Below are positions 20,403 to 61,473 of a DNA stretch of 64,000 nucleotides, in pieces. The DNA is from Bacteroides acidifaciens (lineage in GTDB: Bacteria > Bacteroidota > Bacteroidia > Bacteroidales > Bacteroidaceae). How positions within the stretch are numbered: position 1 is the stretch's first letter; each line of letters starts with the position of its first letter. Both the position numbers and the translations under genes were made by a program. The notes under the pieces were generated by a model. The model saw only the letters and a program-made list of their open reading frames with translations, did no database searches and was not told the DNA's origin. The stretch lies in assembly GCF_903181435.1 (NCBI RefSeq), contig NZ_CAEUHO010000004.1, positions 124,001 through 188,000 on the forward strand. Direction: 5' to 3'.

Positions 20403-20974
20403 TAGTCTCGAAAGGTCAAATAGAGAGATAAATCTGAAAGATAAGAGATTGAATTGTATTCTTATTGACTGGAAGACGAAAAGAGAGAATTATGGTTTCA
20501 TGAACCACTTCTTTTTCGTGCGTACGCTACTCTTCACCAATTTAGTATGCAATTCTTTAATCGTGCATAGTTCAAACCTCTCCTGAATGTATACATAATA
20601 ACCAAGCGGATCAATTCTTTATTCGGGCATGAGAACTCTTCTTTAGACAGTTCATCTATCACTAATATCCAATAGACAGAGGTTAACACAGTAAAATAGT
20701 TTAGTTCTCCCATACCCTAATCTATCAGATAGGACAAGGCGTATAAATACCTCAAACAAGCAGAGATAGTTTGCTTTTCTCCCTGATATAGTTTATCTTT
20801 GCTACCGATATAGTTCATTCTTCATGTGTAATCGCCCGTATTTCTCTCCAAGCTATAATAAAGACGAAGCATGTCTGGCTTTTGACTTTATCTATCTTTC
20901 TTGTTTATCCTTTTCAATTAAATGGCAGTAAATCGGTGTAGTCATTTTTCTCTTCTCTTTCATTCTCCTGTACC
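20403..20974. other. AT-rich gap with possible gene remnant
   Basis: No intact gene. On the minus strand, codons from about 20616 down to a stop at 20490-20492 read DPLGYYVYIQERFELCTIKE and continue to KKKWFMKP. This looks like a protein C terminus with normal composition, but the frame is closed upstream. The rest shows no feature I can support. Confidence 0.35.
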
Positions 20975-29078: not shown

Positions 29079-29084
29079 CATGTG

Positions 29085-29148
29085 ATTTTTTTCATAGTAT
29101 TAGATTTAAGGTTAACAAAGGTTGGAGCAAGGCGTTGCTCCTTTTTTT
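29085..29148 (+). ncRNA. Putative small RNA of about 65 nt
   Basis: The interval between the orphan promoter and a strong terminator would give a transcript of about 60-65 nt. It contains no usable frame: the first ATG (29081-29083, overlapping the expected start region) is followed at once by TGA. The 3' part is a hairpin with a U-tail, as in trans-acting small RNAs. No known RNA family is recognised. Start position is estimated from the -7 box. Confidence 0.5.
29124..29148 (+). terminator. Terminator of the putative small RNA
   Basis: GGAGCAA-GGCG-TTGCTCC followed by seven T residues. It lies 200 bp after the AAA/nuclease gene and could also end read-through from that gene. Confidence 0.85.
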
Positions 29149-29183
29149 ATGCCTATATACGGATTTTTATGTCTATATACAGA

Positions 29184-48384: not shown

Positions 48385-48516
48385 CAAGTTGTTAATTCAC
48401 TGTATTTCAGAAGTTAATTCATCGTTCGTCAAGTGTTAACTGTTGAGTTGTCAAGTGTTAACACTTGAGCCGATAAGTATTAATACTTGAGAAGACAGGT
48501 ATTAATACCTGAGAAA
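48385..48516. repeat. Array of six 22-bp palindromic units (TTAA core)
   Basis: Six consecutive units of exactly 22 bp start at 48385, 48407, 48429, 48451, 48473 and 48495. Each has GTTAAC, GTTAAT or ATTAAT at positions 7-12. The best units are near-perfect palindromes (TCAAGTGTTAACACTTGA, AAGTATTAATACTT, AGGTATTAATACCT). The arms change together so that pairing is kept. The array fills the gap between the PL17 stop (48531) and kdgF. Confidence 0.85.
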
Positions 48517-48530
48517 CGGAAAACTAATCA

Positions 48531-50738
48531 TCATTTCATAAATACTCCGCAACGACCGTTCCAAGCATATATGGTGCCTTCGACCGTCAGGCGGTGTTCT
48601 TTTTCTCTGTCGGTATCGGTGTTGCTCAAGCAAAGCATTACGGAATGCCCACCCTTATAGGTTGCTTTCACCACTGTATAGGAAGCCGTATCCATCACGA
48701 CTTTCACCTCTTCGCAAGATGAGGTCAGGTTACTGGAAGTTTCCCTTACCACATCATATTCTCCATGCGTTTCGATGGAAGTGGCGAATGTATGGTTCTT
48801 CCGTGCTTTTTCCCTTATCAGGAAAGCGGTTTCGTTTCTCAAGTTGAAATCAAAGTCATTAGCGCCCAGACGAAGCATTTTCATTTCTGTTTGCGGAGTA
48901 GTAGCTATACTAATAGTATAGAAACGATCCTTATTGACAAAGGTGAAGCTCGATGTATTTCGGCTCTTGTTCTGCCCCCAGGCTTCCAGCCAAAGATGCT
49001 GATAGCCGTCTTTCGTACCAAGAGTTTTCAGTTCGTTAGTTGCTTTGGCGTAAGGAAAGTTCAGGGAAACGAAGTGTCCGTTATACCAGATAGGGTAATC
49101 GTACTGATGCTCTTTATCCGCATTTGCTTGCAGCACATCCAGGATTAACGGGAATTGCAGGAAAGGGGTAGTCACGTAAGCCAGTGTACGTTTCATCTCT
49201 ATTCCGGGATAGGCATTGGTGTCTTTCGCCACCATTACCTGAAAATGTCCGCCGTTGAAATCATGGTAGATGATGTCTGAATGATAACGGGAAGAGACTT
49301 TTATATCTCCGGCAAAGTGGGATGTTTCGTCCACGACCAATGTATTGTGCGCAATTGTCTGTTTGGCAAACGATTGGTTTTCGCGGGTATAATGACCTTT
49401 ATACTTGGCTTCGATATTCAGGAAGCGGGAAGCACCGTAGTCGGGCAGAATCTCGTTCCCATTGTCGTAATAAGCCATTGTCAGTTTATCAAAATGTCCG
49501 TGGCTCAAGCCGTGTGAGGTAGCTTTCAGTGTCAAGGCGCTATTCAGATTAGAATCTGTGGAGCGGATTACGGCTATGCCGCCTTCATCCCCCTTGCGTC
49601 CGTCACGGAATACACTGCTGCGATAGGTAATCGGGGCAGCTTCTCCGCGGGCAATATCACGGGCTACTTTGAAACCGCCGATAGTAGGGAGATAGGTATG
49701 CTGGTATTTATTTGCAACGGACAATAATGATTTATCCGAAGGATTAACATTATATAATATGTTTACCGCATATACCAGTTCCTGTGCGGAAAGCCCTTTC
49801 AGCAAGGCATCATTAATATGGAAGAATTCGCCTTCATAAGAAAGTTGTATCAATGTGGAGAGGGCTTTTGAAAGAATGCTATCCCGGTAGTTGAAGATTT
49901 TCAAGTCCGGCAGTTTATTCTCGATGCATTGGGCGAAGATGACGAAAGGCCAGATGGCATAACGTTGATAGTAGGCTCCTTCCGTGAAGTAACCGTCGGG
50001 AGAGAACAGGTAATCCATCTGGCGGATAAAGCCACCCCGTTTGCCTGTTCCGTCGGAGCCGTAAAGTGCCTTCTTTACGTAATCTTCACGATTCATCGCA
50101 AAGCCAATCATACCGACGGCGGCCGTAGCCCATGTAGCATGGTTGTGCATTTTATTGAATGTCTTGTTATTTGCATGGTTGTCTCCCATACCGTCCATGA
50201 TGAAGTCCGCCATCGGAACGAAGAGATTCTTCTCGATAGTGGCACGCTGCTTGGGTGAGAGTGTGTTATAGATACAGTCATAAGCAACCGCTGTATGCAC
50301 CAGCCATACACTTTCATTCAGTGTCTGCCAAAACAGACGTCCCGGGACGGGGGAAAGTTGCAGGGGGTGGAACCCTAAAGTAGGGTATAGTTTTGCATAG
50401 GCTTCCAACATATCGCCCACGTAGGCGGCATATTTCTTATCCCCTGTCAACTGATAGGCAACTCCACAATGGAACATGGCATAGTAATTGGATTTATGCT
50501 GTTCGTGTACCACACCGCCACCGCCATCTACGGGAACCGGAACGGAGACAGGAGAGTTTACTGCTGCATCGGCTGCGGCCAACACTTCCGAAAGAGATTT
50601 GTCGAATGCGGGTACTGTCCCCTTTCCTGCCCTCATCTCGTTCACTTCTTCCTGTGTGAAAAGAAGGGACGGATGTTGGGCAAATGAAAAGAGGTATCCA
50701 CCTAAAACCATGAATATGCAAATAATAAGTTTTCTCAT
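48531..50738 (-). CDS. PL17-type oligoalginate lyase (heparinase II/III fold)
   Basis: 735 residues with signal peptide ending at SFAQ. Helical toroid (about 25-360) then beta-sandwich (about 370-735). Active-site landmarks agree in position with the studied PL17 enzyme Alg17C: HNHATW near 198, YYQRYAIW near 254, and LSHGHFDK near 411. PL17 enzymes release unsaturated monouronate from oligoalginate ends. It follows the PL6 gene after 46 bp. Confidence 0.92.
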   Translation of the reverse strand: MRKLIICIFMVLGGYLFSFAQHPSLLFTQEEVNEMRAGKGTVPAFDKSLSEVLAAADAAVNSPVSVPVPVDGGGGVVHEQHKSNYYAMFHCGVAYQLTGDKKYAAYVGDMLEAYAKLYPTLGFHPLQLSPVPGRLFWQTLNESVWLVHTAVAYDCIYNTLSPKQRATIEKNLFVPMADFIMDGMGDNHANNKTFNKMHNHATWATAAVGMIGFAMNREDYVKKALYGSDGTGKRGGFIRQMDYLFSPDGYFTEGAYYQRYAIWPFVIFAQCIENKLPDLKIFNYRDSILSKALSTLIQLSYEGEFFHINDALLKGLSAQELVYAVNILYNVNPSDKSLLSVANKYQHTYLPTIGGFKVARDIARGEAAPITYRSSVFRDGRKGDEGGIAVIRSTDSNLNSALTLKATSHGLSHGHFDKLTMAYYDNGNEILPDYGASRFLNIEAKYKGHYTRENQSFAKQTIAHNTLVVDETSHFAGDIKVSSRYHSDIIYHDFNGGHFQVMVAKDTNAYPGIEMKRTLAYVTTPFLQFPLILDVLQANADKEHQYDYPIWYNGHFVSLNFPYAKATNELKTLGTKDGYQHLWLEAWGQNKSRNTSSFTFVNKDRFYTISIATTPQTEMKMLRLGANDFDFNLRNETAFLIREKARKNHTFATSIETHGEYDVVRETSSNLTSSCEEVKVVMDTASYTVVKATYKGGHSVMLCLSNTDTDREKEHRLTVEGTIYAWNGRCGVFMK

Positions 50739-54752: not shown

Positions 54753-56273
54753 TTAATAACCCGTATTCTGTGCTATCTCTGGATTAATGTCAATCACACT
54801 CACCGGAATAGGCAGAAATGTTTGCCAATCTTCTATATCATTCACCGTATAAGAATATTCCGTATAAAGAAGCTCGCTGTTCAAGTAGTTGTTTACTATC
54901 TGAGTAGCGATACCCCAACGAAGAAGATCAAACCAACGCTGGTTCTCAAAAGCCAGTTCAAGCCTGCGCTCATTACGTACAGCCTTTCTAAAATCATAAA
55001 GACCAGGCAGGTCGGTCAGTGTATACGTAGAAACACCGGCACGTTCACAAACCATATTCAAATACTTCAGATTGTCTGCCGAAGGCCCCGAGATTTCATT
55101 TGTCAATTCAGCATAAAGTAAAGCAATATCAGCCACACGAATCACAGGCCAGTCACTTTCGCCATCATACTGTGTAGTTACAGGATTTACATACTTCTTA
55201 CAGTAACGGCAATTACCTTCCGTCACCCACGTCTGAGTAGTTGTATTGAAATATTTCTGGGCGATATTCACATCCAGACGTTTATCAGCTCCCGCACCTC
55301 TTTGCTCGTAAGCTGCAATAATGTTGTCAGTGGGAGTATTATAACCGGAAGAAGTACCGATAATCACATTTGCACCATTATTGACCGGAGCAAACATATT
55401 GCCGAACGGCGAACCGATACCGGCATTTCCCGAAAGGTAACGAACCGCAAAGATTATCTCCTTATTCATCTCATTGCCAATATCAAAAACCTTATCATAA
55501 GCCACAAGATCACTACCCGATTGCGGATTTCCTACAGATTCACTTTCGAGTACTTCCTTACACAGTCGGGCGGCACGGGCATATTTCTCGTCACCCGCCC
55601 GGTAGTGCGTAGCATATACTTTGGCAAGCAGCGCTTTTGCCGCGTTCAGGTCAGCACGTCCCAAGTCACCGTCCACCATCTTGCCGGGCAACAGTTCATT
55701 ATTGACAATATTCTCCAAGTCTCCTTCAATAAGCGCATATACTTCATCCACCGTAGAGCGTTGCATATCACGGGCCACTTCAGAAGGAACCTTGGAAGTA
55801 ACGATAAATACCGGTCCCCATAAACGGACCAGATTGAAATACTCCAATGAACGAAGAAAAAGTACTTCTCCCTCATATTGGTTCCGCAATGTCTCGTCCG
55901 TCACTACATCAAGGTAAGATATAACATTGTTTACCCGTGCAATTGTGGCATAACAGGCATTCCAATACGTTTCCACCCATTCGTTTTCCGGTACGATAGT
56001 ACCCTGGTCGAGCTGTTCCACCAGTCGTGTAGTATTCGAAGAAGAACCTGCAGCATACATACGTCCGTTATCCGAGCGCAATTCTGTCATGGCCCATTCG
56101 TAATACATCACATCATGCAGGGAATTATAACAACCCAGCACCAGATTATTTACCGACGAAGCATCTTTCACATACTTATCTGCCGCCACTTCCGAATAAG
56201 GATATTGATCCAAATCACAAGCGGAAAATACCATGACGACTAACAATAATCCTATATAATTTATTTTTTTCAT
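54753..56273 (-). CDS. SusD-like alginate-binding lipoprotein
   Basis: 506 residues with lipobox FSAC followed by DLDQYPYSE. SusD/RagB marks: LRSLEYFNLVRLWGPVFI, KALLAKVYATHYRAG, IRVADIALLYAELTNE and FENQRWFDLLRW. It partners the SusC importer encoded 12 bp upstream. Confidence 0.95.
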   Translation of the reverse strand: MKKINYIGLLLVVMVFSACDLDQYPYSEVAADKYVKDASSVNNLVLGCYNSLHDVMYYEWAMTELRSDNGRMYAAGSSSNTTRLVEQLDQGTIVPENEWVETYWNACYATIARVNNVISYLDVVTDETLRNQYEGEVLFLRSLEYFNLVRLWGPVFIVTSKVPSEVARDMQRSTVDEVYALIEGDLENIVNNELLPGKMVDGDLGRADLNAAKALLAKVYATHYRAGDEKYARAARLCKEVLESESVGNPQSGSDLVAYDKVFDIGNEMNKEIIFAVRYLSGNAGIGSPFGNMFAPVNNGANVIIGTSSGYNTPTDNIIAAYEQRGAGADKRLDVNIAQKYFNTTTQTWVTEGNCRYCKKYVNPVTTQYDGESDWPVIRVADIALLYAELTNEISGPSADNLKYLNMVCERAGVSTYTLTDLPGLYDFRKAVRNERRLELAFENQRWFDLLRWGIATQIVNNYLNSELLYTEYSYTVNDIEDWQTFLPIPVSVIDINPEIAQNTGY

Positions 56274-56285
56274 CGTTTTCCTCCA

Positions 56286-59200
56286 TTAAAAATTAATATC
56301 AAAACCGGCAGAAATGGTAGAAGTCAACGGGAACCCACCACGCTGATACCCCGAAATCATTGCACTGGAATAATTACCGGATGTTATACGCGACTCCGGA
56401 TTAATGCCTTTATAGCCACTTCCCCAAATATAGAGCAAGTTACTGCCCGACACATAAAAACGCACACCTGATAACTTAATCTTGCGGGCAGCAGTTGCCG
56501 GCAAGGTATATCCCACTGTAAAGTTACGCAGACAAGCATAAGAAGCATTTTGCAAAGGATAATCAGTAAGCATGAGATCATGCCCCGTTTTCACATTCTG
56601 ATAAGGCGTTTTTCCGTCACCCGGATGTTCTGCACTTACCCAACGGTTCTTTGTGTACTTCTTGTTCCACTTCTTTGTTTCATTATAATATACATCACCA
56701 TTAAGCACTGTGATGCCCTGTACACCCTGAATAAGGAATGAGATGTCGAAATCTTTAATTTGGAAAGTATTGGTGATGCCCCATGTGAAATCCGGGTAAG
56801 GAGTGCCCAACGCAACCCGGTCTTCAGGAGTCAAAGAACCGTCATTATTGGTATCGACAATGCGTATTCCCCCCGGTGCATCGTCTGAAAAATGAGGATT
56901 AGCTGCAATCTCTTCCGCACTATTCCATACACCACACGTTTTGTATCCATAGAATTGAATCAACGGCTCACCCACTTTAGCAAGATAACCCTCATTTCTT
57001 TCACCCAAAGAAATCATTTGTTGTTCACCGCCTAACTCCAATAATTTATTACGCGAAAGTGAGAAATTTATATTAGTATCCCATGAAAACTTACGGCTTT
57101 TCATATTATGCGTATCAAGCTGGATTTCCAAACCTGAGTTACGGACTTTTCCTATATTATTCCAATAGTGTGTGTAACCGGTAAACGATTGCGTCGGTTG
57201 TTCGAACAATAACGCACGTGTCACTGAATAGTAAGCATCTATCGCCAGATTGATACGGTTGTTGAAAAGTCCCAAATCCAGACCATAGTTAAACTCATCA
57301 GTCTGCTCCCATGTAATATTAGAATTAGCCAGCGAAGAAGAGATATTCGCAGAACCATTAACCAATGAACCCGTACCTTTGCCGGTCACGTAATTCGCAC
57401 TGTTCAATACCTCGAGGGCTGCATTATAACTGATACGGTTATTTCCTGTCACACCATACGATGCACGAAGTTTCAAGTTAGAAATAGCCTTGATACCCTT
57501 CATGAATTTCTCTTCACTCACGCGCCAACCCAGTGATACGGAAGGGAACCAGGCATTACGGTTTCCTTTGGAAAAGAGCGATGAACGGTCCAGACGTAGA
57601 GAGGTAGACAACAAATAGCGCCCCAGATAACTATAATTGACACGTCCCAGATAAGATTCCAATACAACATCCGGATATCTGAAAGTTCCCGTACCCGCTG
57701 TATTTCCATTACCCTCACTAGCCAACTCGTAAACGGTGGCAGCATTCAAAGTATGGATGTCATCCGTAGCAAATCCCGTCGCAGCCATAGCCACCCGCTG
57801 ATTCCGTGTCTTTTCTACAGTATATCCCAATAAAGCGTCAAGACTATGGTCTTTATTCTTTCCAAAGTCCAAATGGTAACTCAAGGTATTCTCACTCAAC
57901 AAATCAATATAAAGTGCACTGGAATAAGTAGCACGGCTTGCTTCCTTGTCTTTCGTAGCGTCCTTATTTGCATAATAATAAGAAGGGGCAAAACGAACAT
58001 TCAAGCCGTTGGATGTCTTAAACTGCAATCCTTTACAAAGATCAAGCGTGAGATACATGCTGGCCAATCCTTGCATAGTCTCGCTCCAACGGAAAGTATT
58101 AGTCATTACGCTCGCCGGATTATTATTGGCAGAGCTAAATGGAGACGATTTTTCCAATACACGGTTACCGTCGGCATCCAACAACGGATTTCCATCGGCA
58201 TCCACGGCAGTCGGTGTCATAATATTGTTAAAATGGCTACCCCTTGCAAATCCGGTATATCCGGTCAGGTCTGTGCTATATGCATTGTGATAGACCGGTA
58301 AAAAAGAGGGAGTACGATAGAAATCAATAAAGTTATTTTTCGGACGTTCCGTCTTGCTATACGTACCGGATATATTAACACCCACCATAGCTATCTTTGA
58401 GAGTTTGGTATCCACTTTAGTACGGAAATTCAGTTTGTCCAATGAATTGTTGAGCATCACTCCCTGGTCTTTAGTATAGGCCGCTGAAATAAAATATTTC
58501 GTCTCCTTACGTCCGCCCGAAACACTCATCTGCACATTCGTGATACCTGCCATATCACGCAAGCCCTCTTTCTGCCAGTCGGTAGTCCCCATCTGGCTTT
58601 CCAAATAAGCAGCCCCGCGAGCAGCACTCGGTACTTTCGGACCACCTAAGGCAGCTTCTTCTTCCAATAAACCCAACCATTCGGAAGAAGTCATCATATC
58701 ATGCAACTGATAAGCGTATTTAAACCCCTGATAGAACTTAAAAGAATATTTCGGTTTGTCCGGCGTACCGCTCTTTGTCGTCACCATAATCACTCCATTG
58801 GCAGCACGTGAACCATAAATAGCAGCCGAAGCCGCATCTTTCAAAATTTCAATAGACTTCACATCCGCAGCATTGATAGACGACAAACCACCGGATACGG
58901 GAAATCCATCTATGATAACCAACGGTTCACTATCTGCGGAAATGGAACCCGTACCGCGTACCCGGATAGAAGGAGTCACACCCACTTCCGATGTCTCATT
59001 AGAAACCGTCAATCCAGTCATAGCACCTTGCAAGGCAGTAGTGACATCACTCACCGGAGCATTAATCAATTTCTCGCCTTCCAACTTTGAAATCGAACCT
59101 GTCAAATGAGATTTCGCCTGTGTACCGTAACCGATTACCACAACATCATCCAACATCTTCGAATCTTCTTCCAACGTCACATTCACAACTGTACGTTTGC

Positions 59201-59468
59201 CAACCGCTTCCGCCTTATCAACGTAACCGATATACGAATAAACCAAAATTGTCTTGGAATTAGGAACCTTAATGGAGTATTTACCTTCAGCGTCCGTCAC
59301 AGTACCGGTAGGAACGGCAGCGTCTTTCACTGTCACCGAAGCTCCAATCAACGGACCCTGTTCATCTATCACCTTACCAGTAACTACATGCTGGGAGTAA
59401 ACGTTCAATGTCCCTACCAACAACAGGAACATCATCACGACTTTTTTTAAAATACAGGAGTTGTTCAT
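56286..59468 (-). CDS. SusC-like TonB-dependent alginate importer
   Basis: 1060 residues, signal peptide ending near VYSQ. Carboxypeptidase-regulatory-like domain (about 28-98, VVTGKVIDEQGPLIGASV), the DDVVVIGYG signature (about 107-115), a plug domain with AAIYGSRAANGVIMVTTK, and a barrel ending in TISAGFDINF. First gene of the alginate operon, downstream of a good promoter with a double operator. Confidence 0.97.
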   Translation of the reverse strand: MNNSCILKKVVMMFLLLVGTLNVYSQHVVTGKVIDEQGPLIGASVTVKDAAVPTGTVTDAEGKYSIKVPNSKTILVYSYIGYVDKAEAVGKRTVVNVTLEEDSKMLDDVVVIGYGTQAKSHLTGSISKLEGEKLINAPVSDVTTALQGAMTGLTVSNETSEVGVTPSIRVRGTGSISADSEPLVIIDGFPVSGGLSSINAADVKSIEILKDAASAAIYGSRAANGVIMVTTKSGTPDKPKYSFKFYQGFKYAYQLHDMMTSSEWLGLLEEEAALGGPKVPSAARGAAYLESQMGTTDWQKEGLRDMAGITNVQMSVSGGRKETKYFISAAYTKDQGVMLNNSLDKLNFRTKVDTKLSKIAMVGVNISGTYSKTERPKNNFIDFYRTPSFLPVYHNAYSTDLTGYTGFARGSHFNNIMTPTAVDADGNPLLDADGNRVLEKSSPFSSANNNPASVMTNTFRWSETMQGLASMYLTLDLCKGLQFKTSNGLNVRFAPSYYYANKDATKDKEASRATYSSALYIDLLSENTLSYHLDFGKNKDHSLDALLGYTVEKTRNQRVAMAATGFATDDIHTLNAATVYELASEGNGNTAGTGTFRYPDVVLESYLGRVNYSYLGRYLLSTSLRLDRSSLFSKGNRNAWFPSVSLGWRVSEEKFMKGIKAISNLKLRASYGVTGNNRISYNAALEVLNSANYVTGKGTGSLVNGSANISSSLANSNITWEQTDEFNYGLDLGLFNNRINLAIDAYYSVTRALLFEQPTQSFTGYTHYWNNIGKVRNSGLEIQLDTHNMKSRKFSWDTNINFSLSRNKLLELGGEQQMISLGERNEGYLAKVGEPLIQFYGYKTCGVWNSAEEIAANPHFSDDAPGGIRIVDTNNDGSLTPEDRVALGTPYPDFTWGITNTFQIKDFDISFLIQGVQGITVLNGDVYYNETKKWNKKYTKNRWVSAEHPGDGKTPYQNVKTGHDLMLTDYPLQNASYACLRNFTVGYTLPATAARKIKLSGVRFYVSGSNLLYIWGSGYKGINPESRITSGNYSSAMISGYQRGGFPLTSTISAGFDINF

Positions 59469-59538: not shown

Positions 59539-59709
59539 TTAATATTTATTAATAATTAGATATAAACCGCTTATAAATAACACGTTACGTGTACCTATAT
59601 ATAAAAGGACAGGAGAATATTTTTACTAGAAAGCTTTACTTTGAAAGATAATATTCGTACTTTTACAGCCGAAACGGAAAAGGTCATCTTTTTAGAATAT
59701 TTATATCTT

Positions 59710-60429
59710 ATGAAAGACGAAATCAATTCGCAACCAGTTAAGCATGTAATAGAACACATAAAAAAACAAATATCAGAACGTCAGATTTTACCGGGAGAGC
59801 GTCTCCCTTCTGAGCGTAAATTATCCGAACTTTTGAAAGTCAGTCGGTCACATGTTCGCGAGGCATTGCAGAAACTGGAATTATACGGTATTGTAAAAAC
59901 ATATCCTCAGAGTGGAACAGTGGTATCCGAATTCTCCAAAGACCAGTTGGATACTATGATTACCGATGCATTGAAAATCAGCAGATATGATTTTTCAAGC
60001 TTGGTTTATGTACGTGTACTTCTGGAAATAGAGGTCTGCAAATTATGCGCAGTAAACCGCACAGAAGAGGATTTGAAGAATATCGAAAACACGCTTGTCG
60101 AACTGGAAGAAAAGTTTGATACAGACCTTCGTGTCGAAAAAGATTTTGCCTTTCACCAGGCCATTGCGCAAGGCGGACATAATCCGGTTATCAGTTCACT
60201 CCTGCTTATTATTACTCCTGATATTTTAAAATATTATCAAAAATACAAAGTTTGTGCCGTTCCTCAAAAAACGGTTCATGCGGAACATAGGGAAATGTTA
60301 CAGAAGATAAAAGATAGGGACAAAGAAGGAATGAAAGAACTGGTGCTCCGCCACTTGGCCAATCTGATTGATTTTGCTAAAATGTCCGCGAAAGGCGATA
60401 TCCCGGAATTCGAATACGGACATATCTAA
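59710..60429 (+). CDS. GntR-family regulator, FadR subfamily
   Basis: The frame is open back to a TTG at 59641, but the ATG at 59710 fits the family start (MKDEINSQPVKHVIEHIKK), giving 239 residues. The N-terminal winged helix has LPGERLPSERKLSELLKVSRSHVREAL. The C-terminal all-helical FCD domain has the metal-binding residues spread in VRVLLEIE, DFAFHQAIA and VHAEHREML. Divergent from the alginate operon with the operator between them. The likely ligand is DEH, KDG or another alginate product, by inference. Confidence 0.92.
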   Translation: MKDEINSQPVKHVIEHIKKQISERQILPGERLPSERKLSELLKVSRSHVREALQKLELYGIVKTYPQSGTVVSEFSKDQLDTMITDALKISRYDFSSLVYVRVLLEIEVCKLCAVNRTEEDLKNIENTLVELEEKFDTDLRVEKDFAFHQAIAQGGHNPVISSLLLIITPDILKYYQKYKVCAVPQKTVHAEHREMLQKIKDRDKEGMKELVLRHLANLIDFAKMSAKGDIPEFEYGHI

Positions 60430-60452
60430 GATACGTAAAAGAATAGATTTAA

Positions 60453-60500
60453 TTAGTTGTATGCGAGAAACTATCCAGTCTCTTGCATACAACTAATTTC
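60453..60500 (+). terminator. Terminator of the GntR gene
   Basis: TTAGTTGTATGCGAGA (60453-60468) pairs with TCTTGCATACAACTAA (60481-60496) over 16 positions with one G-U pair, loop 12 nt, then TTTC. It begins 24 bp after the stop. Confidence 0.8.
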
Positions 60501-60518
60501 GTTTATACATAAAATTAA

Positions 60519-60606
60519 TCATCTGACTATAGTTATTCTTTCGTCTGACTATAGTTAGACGAAAAGTCAACAGTAGTCAGACGAAAGTTCAACTATAGTC
60601 AGACGA
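60519..60606. repeat. Array of four 22-bp palindromic units (CTATAG core)
   Basis: Four units of exactly 22 bp, centred on CTATAG, CTATAG, CAGTAG and CTATAG at 60527, 60549, 60571 and 60593. Unit 2 (TCGTCTGACTATAGTTAGAC plus GA) is self-complementary but for one mismatched pair. The left half of unit 2 and the right half of unit 4 are exact complements. It has the same period as the array at 48385 but another sequence, and lies between convergent genes. Confidence 0.85.
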
Positions 60607-60678
60607 ATAAATTTATTCGATTGAAGAGTTAGTTTTGTGCATACGGAAGGCTAATTGGTAGCAAACTGGCTATTAATC

Positions 60679-61473
60679 TTATTTGATAAGATAAGTAGCC
60701 ACTACCGGATAATGGTCTGATTCCTTATCCGCCCAATAACAAACATTATACGCCTTTACCGTAAAAGCCTCGTTTGGCGCATAAATCAACCAGTCACATG
60801 CGTAAGCCGGACTTGGAACGGGTACTGTCCATGGAGCACCATCACTCAAACAATTTACGGTGAAATACTTTTGAAAAGCAGCCATGGTAGCAGAACCACG
60901 GCGGGAATTCAAATCTCCCCCCAAGATAACAGGTTTATCCAGTTGCTCCACACACGCAAGAATTTCATCAACCTGTTTCAGACGGGTAGCATCTTCGTAT
61001 TTATGGTCCAGATGTGTCGTAGCGAAATAGAATTCTTTGCCTTCCTTCGCAACTTTCACATAGCCGAAAGAACGGACATAATCGCCTTCTTTCAGTACAC
61101 TCAACTTAAAACTCTTTTCCTCGGAAACCGGATATTTGGAAAGAATCACATTTCCGTAATCTCCGCCAGTCGGAATATCGAGCGCATGGGCAAAATAATA
61201 ATATTTCATTCCCGTTAGTTCCGACAGTTTTTTCGGAGTATCCCAAGGGTTAATCTCCGTGTTTCTTTCTATTTCCTGGAGTGAAACGATATCCGGGTTC
61301 TCTTTCTTAATGACTTCGGCAATCTTATCAAGTCCTTGTTTACGACCGCTATACGTGTTGTAAGTCATGGCTTTTACTGTGACCTCTTTCGGTTTTTTCA
61401 CAGGTTTCTGTGCCATTGAAGGTTGTAACAAACAACACAATAGAAACAATGAAATGCATATTCTAAAATTCAT
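60679..61473 (-). CDS. Secreted endonuclease/exonuclease/phosphatase-family protein
   Basis: 264 residues with signal peptide ending SMAQ. EEP fold marks: VKAMTYNTYSG, IVSLQEIERNT with the metal-binding Glu, HLDHKYEDATRLKQ, GGDLNSRRGS with the Asp-Leu-Asn pair, and ESDHYPVVA with the terminal Asp-His. Such enzymes split phosphodiesters or phosphomonoesters. In PULs they may remove phosphate or sphingo-/glycan-linked phosphate. Homologous to the protein encoded at 62932-63765. Confidence 0.9.
   Translation of the reverse strand: MNFRICISLFLLCCLLQPSMAQKPVKKPKEVTVKAMTYNTYSGRKQGLDKIAEVIKKENPDIVSLQEIERNTEINPWDTPKKLSELTGMKYYYFAHALDIPTGGDYGNVILSKYPVSEEKSFKLSVLKEGDYVRSFGYVKVAKEGKEFYFATTHLDHKYEDATRLKQVDEILACVEQLDKPVILGGDLNSRRGSATMAAFQKYFTVNCLSDGAPWTVPVPSPAYACDWLIYAPNEAFTVKAYNVCYWADKESDHYPVVATYLIK

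Follow-up and report, generated by a model that had tools for sequence, protein, structure and literature searches.

The question raised by this locus is what maintains a row of 22-bp repeat units between two genes of a Bacteroides chromosome: the shape of a folded nucleic acid, the persistence of a selfish element, or the spacing needed by a protein that reads the DNA. The array occupies positions 60519-60606 of the window, a 64,000-nt stretch of Bacteroides acidifaciens (GCF_903181435.1, contig NZ_CAEUHO010000004.1, positions 124,001-188,000 of the forward strand). With a probability of roughly 0.45, it is a row of dyad-symmetric putative DNA-binding sites for stacking dimers, carried by mobile intergenic repeats.

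The array and its surroundings

The array contains four units in an exact 22-bp period, as originally predicted, all described here on the forward strand. Unit 1 (F, 60519-60540) consists of a left arm, the core ACTATAGT at 60526-60533 and a spacer ending in CTT; unit 2 (P, 60541-60562) is a near-perfect 22-bp palindrome, TCGTCTGACTATAGTTAGACGA, with its core at 60548-60555; unit 3 (R1, 60563-60584) comprises a spacer, the core ACAGTAGT at 60570-60577, apparently a hybrid between core classes TATA and AGYT, and a right arm; and unit 4 (R2, 60585-60606) comprises the spacer AAGTTCA, the core ACTATAGT at 60592-60599 and a right arm. Compared at lag 22, the top-scoring 44-bp stretch gives 31 matches. 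In 2000 dinucleotide shuffles of the intergenic region this score was never attained (mean 17.8, maximum 25), and the four-dyad score is 23 (p = 0.001, shuffle test). The original prediction also took the units to be palindromic. This holds for unit 2, which is nearly a full palindrome, but not for units 1, 3 and 4, where the 8-bp core is accompanied by a single arm, the left one in unit 1 and the right one in units 3 and 4. The sequence on which the array was thought to be built, GTCTGACTATAGTCAGAC, is absent from all four units, although the sequence in unit 2, GTCTGACTATAGTTAGAC, differs from it by a single transition. The left half of unit 2 (TCGTCTGACTATAGT) and the right half of unit 4 (ACTATAGTCAGACGA) do pair perfectly, as had been noted, and the entire array is enclosed in an imperfect inverted repeat of 108 bp (60509-60616; 60509-60556 against 60569-60616, 83%).

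The left neighbor is the gene of a GntR/FCD-family regulator (59641-60429, + strand), which ends 90 bp ahead of the array; the right neighbor, in convergent orientation, encodes an endonuclease/exonuclease/phosphatase-family protein (60679-61473, - strand). A separate hairpin with 22-bp arms (60451-60498, + strand, 91%) lies between the regulator gene and the array. It is possibly the terminator of that gene, although the terminator scan of 60380-60760 reports 0 intrinsic terminators (a hairpin followed by a T run). A terminator or promoter role of the array itself was rejected, the signal there not exceeding chance. A search of phage records returned 8 at E<=10, the best of them covering 16% of the query, none being a genuine match to the array. 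The Rfam covariance models gave no match to it either; for eight loci Rfam returned only five miRNA-hairpin matches, every one below the gathering score. Elsewhere in the window, 29082-29151 (+ strand) matches Rfam RF04319 (BTncRNA_FopS, 72.2 bits against a gathering score of 56), a family of paralogous Bacteroidetes sRNAs, and 20766-20815 holds a further 22-bp tandem repeat of 2.3 copies.

A second array lies at 48427-48514, with four clear 22-bp units built on TTAA-centered dyads and flanked by degenerate units (48405-48426 and 48515-48536). It had been placed at 48385; its 22-bp units are real, but the clear ones start at 48427 and 48385-48426 is degenerate. Close to it, 48531-50738 matches heparinase and alginate-lyase families, and 54753-59468 presumably encodes SusD and SusC, such that both window arrays are found near saccharide-type genes. 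The genes adjoining 19 other arrays, read by eye, appear to be of many kinds, several of them presumably housekeeping genes.

One period in unrelated core families

The occurrence of the same 22-bp architecture with unrelated sequence at two places had suggested a general class of element. A sequence-blind scan of 464 kb, made up of the window and 20 regular 20-kb samples of the nearest genome (G001) and including 40.6 kb of intergenic DNA according to a crude ORF caller, supports this view: it contains 14 intergenic runs at lag 22 and 8 at the harmonic lag of 44, against at most one at any other lag between 12 and 60, and its coding DNA holds no lag-22 run. The 14 runs correspond to 13 arrays, since two adjacent runs (L136) form a single one, and not all of these are clearly palindromic (L141 at 15049). 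Further 22-bp arrays are thus present in G001, together with at least three more core families, among them GAAAC-N5-GTTTC rows, one row on CACTCNAGTG and one on CACGGCCGTG (dyad scan). The second array of the window belongs to a second dispersed family, which is matched in each of the seven genomes queried, with top E values per genome ranging from 7e-30 to 9.4e-9. The 20 loci displayed have several units in 22-bp phase, and two of them (L122 and L123) are identical across the displayed stretch.

The family of the array at 60519-60606 (family 1) was searched for in 99 Bacteroides genomes with the 301-bp array region as query. It is found in 13 of them at E<=1e-6 and in 75 at E<=1, many of the latter matches being near chance level, and several genomes carry many copies on both strands. 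A family-1 pattern with up to 3 mismatches occurs in 3 of 247 genomes sampled from the order: 12 times in G001, and with 2-3 mismatches in two distant genomes. None of 40 fetched loci has an ORF of at least 70 residues spanning the array (crude ORF caller). With the window included, 25 of the 41 rows fit, by eye, one ungapped 88-bp plan, in which a left-arm unit and a palindrome are followed by two right-arm units; the remaining rows are shortened or shifted or belong to different arm classes. The cores fall into a TATA class, an ARYT class (such as AGTT, AGCT, AATT and AACT) and a GCC-TATA-GGC form. Each array often has a single core class, with some hybrids, and the class varies between species at orthologous loci (orthology judged by flank similarity): at the locus of the window array, TATA predominates in the window and in G001, whereas AGTT/AGTA is found in G091 and AGCT/AGTT in G013.

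The spacing of neighboring cores is locked, although the linkers between them can be free. Neighboring family-1 cores up to 120 bp apart (L001-L100 and the window) are separated by 22 bp in 133 cases, 44 bp in 16 and 92-115 bp in 5, with none at 21 or 23 bp, a count that is not an unbiased sample because similarity to the window array was the basis for retrieving the loci. The ACTATAGT cores of this family are joined by 63 distinct but related 14-nt linkers. Outside the genus, G236 is a 2.2-Mb genome of a different Bacteroidales family, whose cores differ from those of Bacteroides and include CCAGTACTGG, CCTATATAGG, GCTATATAGC, ATACGTAT, CGTATACG and TGCGCA. In 500 kb of this genome, the intergenic runs number 28 at lag 22, 11 at 44 and 8 at 45, with at most two at other lags, and 5 additional lag-22 runs lie inside called ORFs; four-dyad rows show the same preference (25 at period 22, 8 at 44, 4 at 33 and at most two elsewhere). 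Neighboring CTATATAG cores in the same 500 kb are 22 bp apart in 39 of 43 cases. For CAGTACTG (n = 37), the distances are 22 bp in 24 cases, 23 bp in 5, 45 bp in 6, and 44 and 67 bp in one each, and all 24 linkers of the 22-bp pairs are distinct, with a mean identity of 0.32. Fixed spacing combined with free linkers is expected of phased protein sites, unlike plain duplication. Dyad sites at a fixed spacing of whole helical turns and with free linkers, as a phased operator array would have, are therefore present, in family 1 on the basis of similarity-fetched loci. Rows on GCTATATAGC in G236 do hold near-identical units, from which it follows that duplication acts too. These GCTATATAGC rows share a tail of about GAAGTGACCTMTATTAGGTTGTTGCTCCGCGTAGG, with small variants, after some 4 to 10 units by eye, and the tailed rows (L232, L263, L264, L266, L268, L269, L270 and L272) constitute a dispersed minisatellite element. 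Gaps between G236 genes that contain arrays are longer than the others (median 644 vs. 253 bp).

The class is patchy. Allowing up to 2 mismatches, the pair CCAGTACTGG-N12-CCAGTACTGG was counted 196 times in G236 (reversed control: 0) and in none of 37 other genomes of its family. A 20-kb stretch of G394, another member of this family, holds two rows on TTGCAACT. Samples of 100-140 kb gave one lag-22 run in G027, three with weak dyads in G061 and one, not palindromic, in G378; in this last genome, L227 16687-16845 consists of near-identical, non-palindromic 22-bp tandem units. One run was found in a 100-kb sample of G183 and one in a 20-kb stretch, neither clearly palindromic, and a further 278 kb of the order, in fourteen stretches, G183 included, amount to background, with one run at lag 22 and two at 23. 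Lag-22 runs are absent from the samples of G041, G088, G231, G166, G260 and G172 (100-120 kb each), which argues against a universal chromosomal function, and from 100 kb of E. coli and 146 kb covering eight other named loci. A phylum-wide pattern scan matched 0 of 41 but is uninformative, as its pattern missed G001 too.

Folding, mobility and change of the arrays

The main rival explanation is structural: the array would act as RNA or as extruded or single-stranded DNA, forming one long or several short hairpins that block transcription, protect RNA ends or stall replication forks. The region 60505-60620 indeed folds as a very stable long hairpin (RNA -51.6 kcal/mol, z -11.5; DNA z -10.5). 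Pairing was assessed in 32 arrays, the remainder of 41 F-P-R-R rows after dropping 3 off-family or off-register rows and 6 near-duplicates. The spacers of F1 and R1 pair in an array-specific manner (z 3.4, p = 0.001) and are exact complements in 8 of the 32 arrays, and exact complementarity extends to the F1 and R1 cores in 7 of the 13 arrays whose F1 core is not palindromic. Pairing between the F1 and R2 spacers does not exceed chance in the same 32 arrays (p = 0.69). Core pairing between F1 and R1 reaches z 5.9, but all nine unit pairings tested range from 3.5 to 5.9, because the cores within an array are alike.

Other families were examined by an unbiased permutation. The 27 arrays of G236 show no unit-specific pairing (cores 0.850 vs. 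0.848 permuted, p = 0.39; arms p = 0.18 and 0.13), nor do nine other Bacteroides rows, and the second family (17 arrays) shows a modest effect (p = 0.004, 0.04 and 0.005 from the core outwards, 0.45 outermost). The symmetry in G236 is common to the units of an array rather than unit-specific, as expected for the consensus of a dimer. Moreover, a hairpin does not need 22 bp, yet unrelated families have this period in common; the window array lacks a terminator signature; and the orientation of neighboring genes follows no consistent rule, either at 40 family-1 loci (13 divergent, 19 tandem, 8 convergent) or in G236, where arrays occupy 6 of the 12 gaps between convergent genes, 10 of the 23 between divergent genes and 18 of the 78 between tandem genes. 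The structural explanation is thus rather unlikely for the class, which is not defined by hairpins, although hairpin effects may be added in some families.

The arrays are dispersed, and one subfamily offers a view of how. The paralogs L045 and L046 have flanks of 82 and 78 bp in common (98.8 and 98.7% identity), and a search with the L046 region revealed an empty site: G107 is contiguous where G022 has ~243 bp, with the two matches overlapping by 7 bp in G107. Loss of the unit from G107 is the less likely alternative. The subfamily's unit is bounded by GAATGAACTAAT and ATTAGTTCATTTC, beyond which an imperfect direct repeat of ~7 bp is found. The L045/L046 subfamily, as judged at this single site, therefore behaves as a ~243-bp MITE-like unit with the features by which MITEs are recognized, i.e., a discrete short unit, terminal inverted repeats (TIRs) and insertion polymorphism. 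An L046-type element is found in 19 of 158 genomes at E<=1e-8, many of them matching in the array part only. A TIR search of three genomes gave not many matches above the reversed control, with no partner IS evident, and an autonomous insertion sequence with the same ends was discarded as none is evident in these genomes. No transposase could be linked to the element. Mobilization by RAYT was likewise rejected as a general explanation: PF01797 (Y1_Tnp) exceeds the cut-off in one of nine array-rich Bacteroides genomes and is absent from the other eight, and from G236, G027, G061 and G404. It is present in G394, which also has rows, G321 and G403.

Such units could be nothing but passive selfish repeats, minisatellite-bearing MITEs mobilized by a putative transposase and devoid of host function, in which palindromy and homogeneity arise from slippage and template switching. 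The presence or absence of the unit in G022 and G107 with its imperfect direct repeat, the near-identical flanks of L045 and L046, and the G236 elements that combine a common tail with a variable number of sometimes near-identical units all fit this proposal, which also has a published analog in BrickBuilt (PMC4596501). However, slippage explains neither a constant 22-bp distance between centers joined by unrelated linkers nor the identical period of unrelated families, and orthologous family-1 loci retain the array while its core class changes. A purely selfish origin is accordingly considered unlikely.

The proposal that the class evolves by unit duplication and arm conversion is partly supported: near-identical GCTATATAGC units speak for duplication, but duplication alone fails, as the CAGTACTG linkers differ in 24 of 24 cases. 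Units are also lost (L165 has three units, the window four) and cores alter in concert within arrays. In addition, segments may be inverted. L045 and L046 differ chiefly in the orientation of the stretch from the core of unit 1 to that of unit 3; flipping it raises their identity from 0.875 to 0.966, and flipping the middle raises the identity of L048 and L055 from 0.852 to 0.920. This would suit a recombination array, in which each dyad is a recombinase site and short linkers are inverted or shuffled. Six G001 copies (L031-L036) share one asymmetric mismatch in unit 2 (GTCTGAC..GTTAGAC on one strand), three in one direction and three in the other, which points the same way. Nevertheless, inversion fits clearly in 2 of 12 compared pairs, the other ten not being clearly improved, and no recombinase has been tied to the arrays; hairpin loops can undergo minute inversions without any enzyme. 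Site-specific recombination is therefore a very improbable function of the class. Faster evolution of the array than of its flanks was rejected as a general rule, with array identity below both flanks in only 4 of the 12 pairs.

The window's locus itself has been reused. In a Parabacteroides MAG (L170, 459-613), a 22-bp row with ACARYTGT-type cores and other arms directly follows a regulator gene whose product is 91% identical to that of the window over the 127 residues on the contig. The family-1 array is absent at this locus from L164, L166 and B. finegoldii (L176). In G158 (L300, 1780-2560) and B. finegoldii (L176, after 10255), a gene, presumably HU-like, fills the slot after the regulator, and CCTAAA repeats ~22 bp apart are found on its upstream side.

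Proposed phased binding sites and comparison with known systems

In the preferred reading, that of phased binding sites, dyad centers two helical turns (22 bp) apart would place protein dimers on neighboring sites along one face of the DNA, allowing cooperative stacking or wrapping. Small non-coding repeat units would carry the rows between genes, as suggested by the single presence/absence case in one subfamily, and the rows would then change as 22-bp units are lost, the middle is inverted and the cores of an array are replaced in concert. A separate protein, or a separate protein specificity, would belong to each core family, and binding may affect transcription, chromosome folding or foreign DNA. 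Phased sites are favored by the locked spacing, the distinct linkers and the period common to unrelated cores. Against them, a genome with several core families would require several proteins, family-1 hairpins are very stable and their F1 and R1 spacers are exact complements in a quarter of the arrays tested, the CAGTACTG rows contain 23-bp steps, some G236 rows are plain tandem duplicates, and the second family shows modest unit-specific pairing.

A broader version is tentative, and somewhat doubtful. Some Bacteroidales chromosomes might carry at least 100 intergenic rows (extrapolated from samples), with core families that differ between species and serve putative stacking proteins. Such rows could form a layer that organizes or silences the chromosome, with a specificity that turns over in concert as arrays and proteins co-evolve. 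Palindromic repeats between genes are generally regarded as families with no relation to one another. In the present case, families of unrelated sequence from two Bacteroidales families adhere to one strict number, 22 bp, partly with free linkers, and this shared period points to a common machine reading the helix. The function of such repeats thereby becomes directly testable in genetically tractable Bacteroides.

The literature searched, with subscription papers and preprints outside its scope, yielded no description of 22-bp phased palindrome arrays in Bacteroides. No published precedent was found for a general 22-bp rule across unrelated families, the closest case in print being BrickBuilt of Porphyromonas gingivalis (PMC4596501). 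BrickBuilt is a 23-nt minisatellite inside a MITE with a leader and a tail; BLASTn finds it in P. gingivalis only, with leader and tail matches also in P. gulae (PMC4596501). Both systems have a short tandem repeat in a dispersed, always intergenic MITE-like unit of a Bacteroidales genome, and both have predicted long stem-loops. The published description sets BrickBuilt apart by its 23-nt unit, against 22 bp here, and presents a single family rather than a set of unrelated cores in one phase. Its TIRs resemble those of IS5-family elements, whereas no partner IS is evident here.

REP/BIME sequences and their RAYT (TnpA-REP) transposases provide a second comparison, being dispersed intergenic palindromes that are often clustered. 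They differ from the present arrays in the transposase, Y1_Tnp being found in one of nine array-rich Bacteroides genomes and not in G236; no GTAG/GTRG foot was noticed by eye in the aligned family-1 copies. The CGTC-tagged REPs, also reported from Bacteroidetes, are similar in having CGTC at the edge of the palindrome and a 4-bp center. They consist of an unpaired CGTC tag, a stem of 8-9 bp, a loop of 4-5 nt and a CCA-like tail, and clusters are rare (PMC3733652). Here, CGTC pairs with GACG (TCGTC...GACGA), 22-bp rows are the rule, and aligned family-1 copies have no CCA tail by eye.

A parallel for the proposed mode of binding is the Lrp-type protein BarR, an example of wrapping at 4-5 semipalindromic sites in regular phase, which its authors describe as two helical turns apart on one DNA face (PMC10201364). 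BarR sites are single operators beside the target gene, whereas the arrays described here are dispersed rows with many core types and show no target-gene rule. With 15-bp motifs and spacers of 15-17 bp, the BarR sites lie ~30-32 bp apart from start to start (PMC10201364), so that BarR is a precedent for regular phasing rather than for 22 bp.
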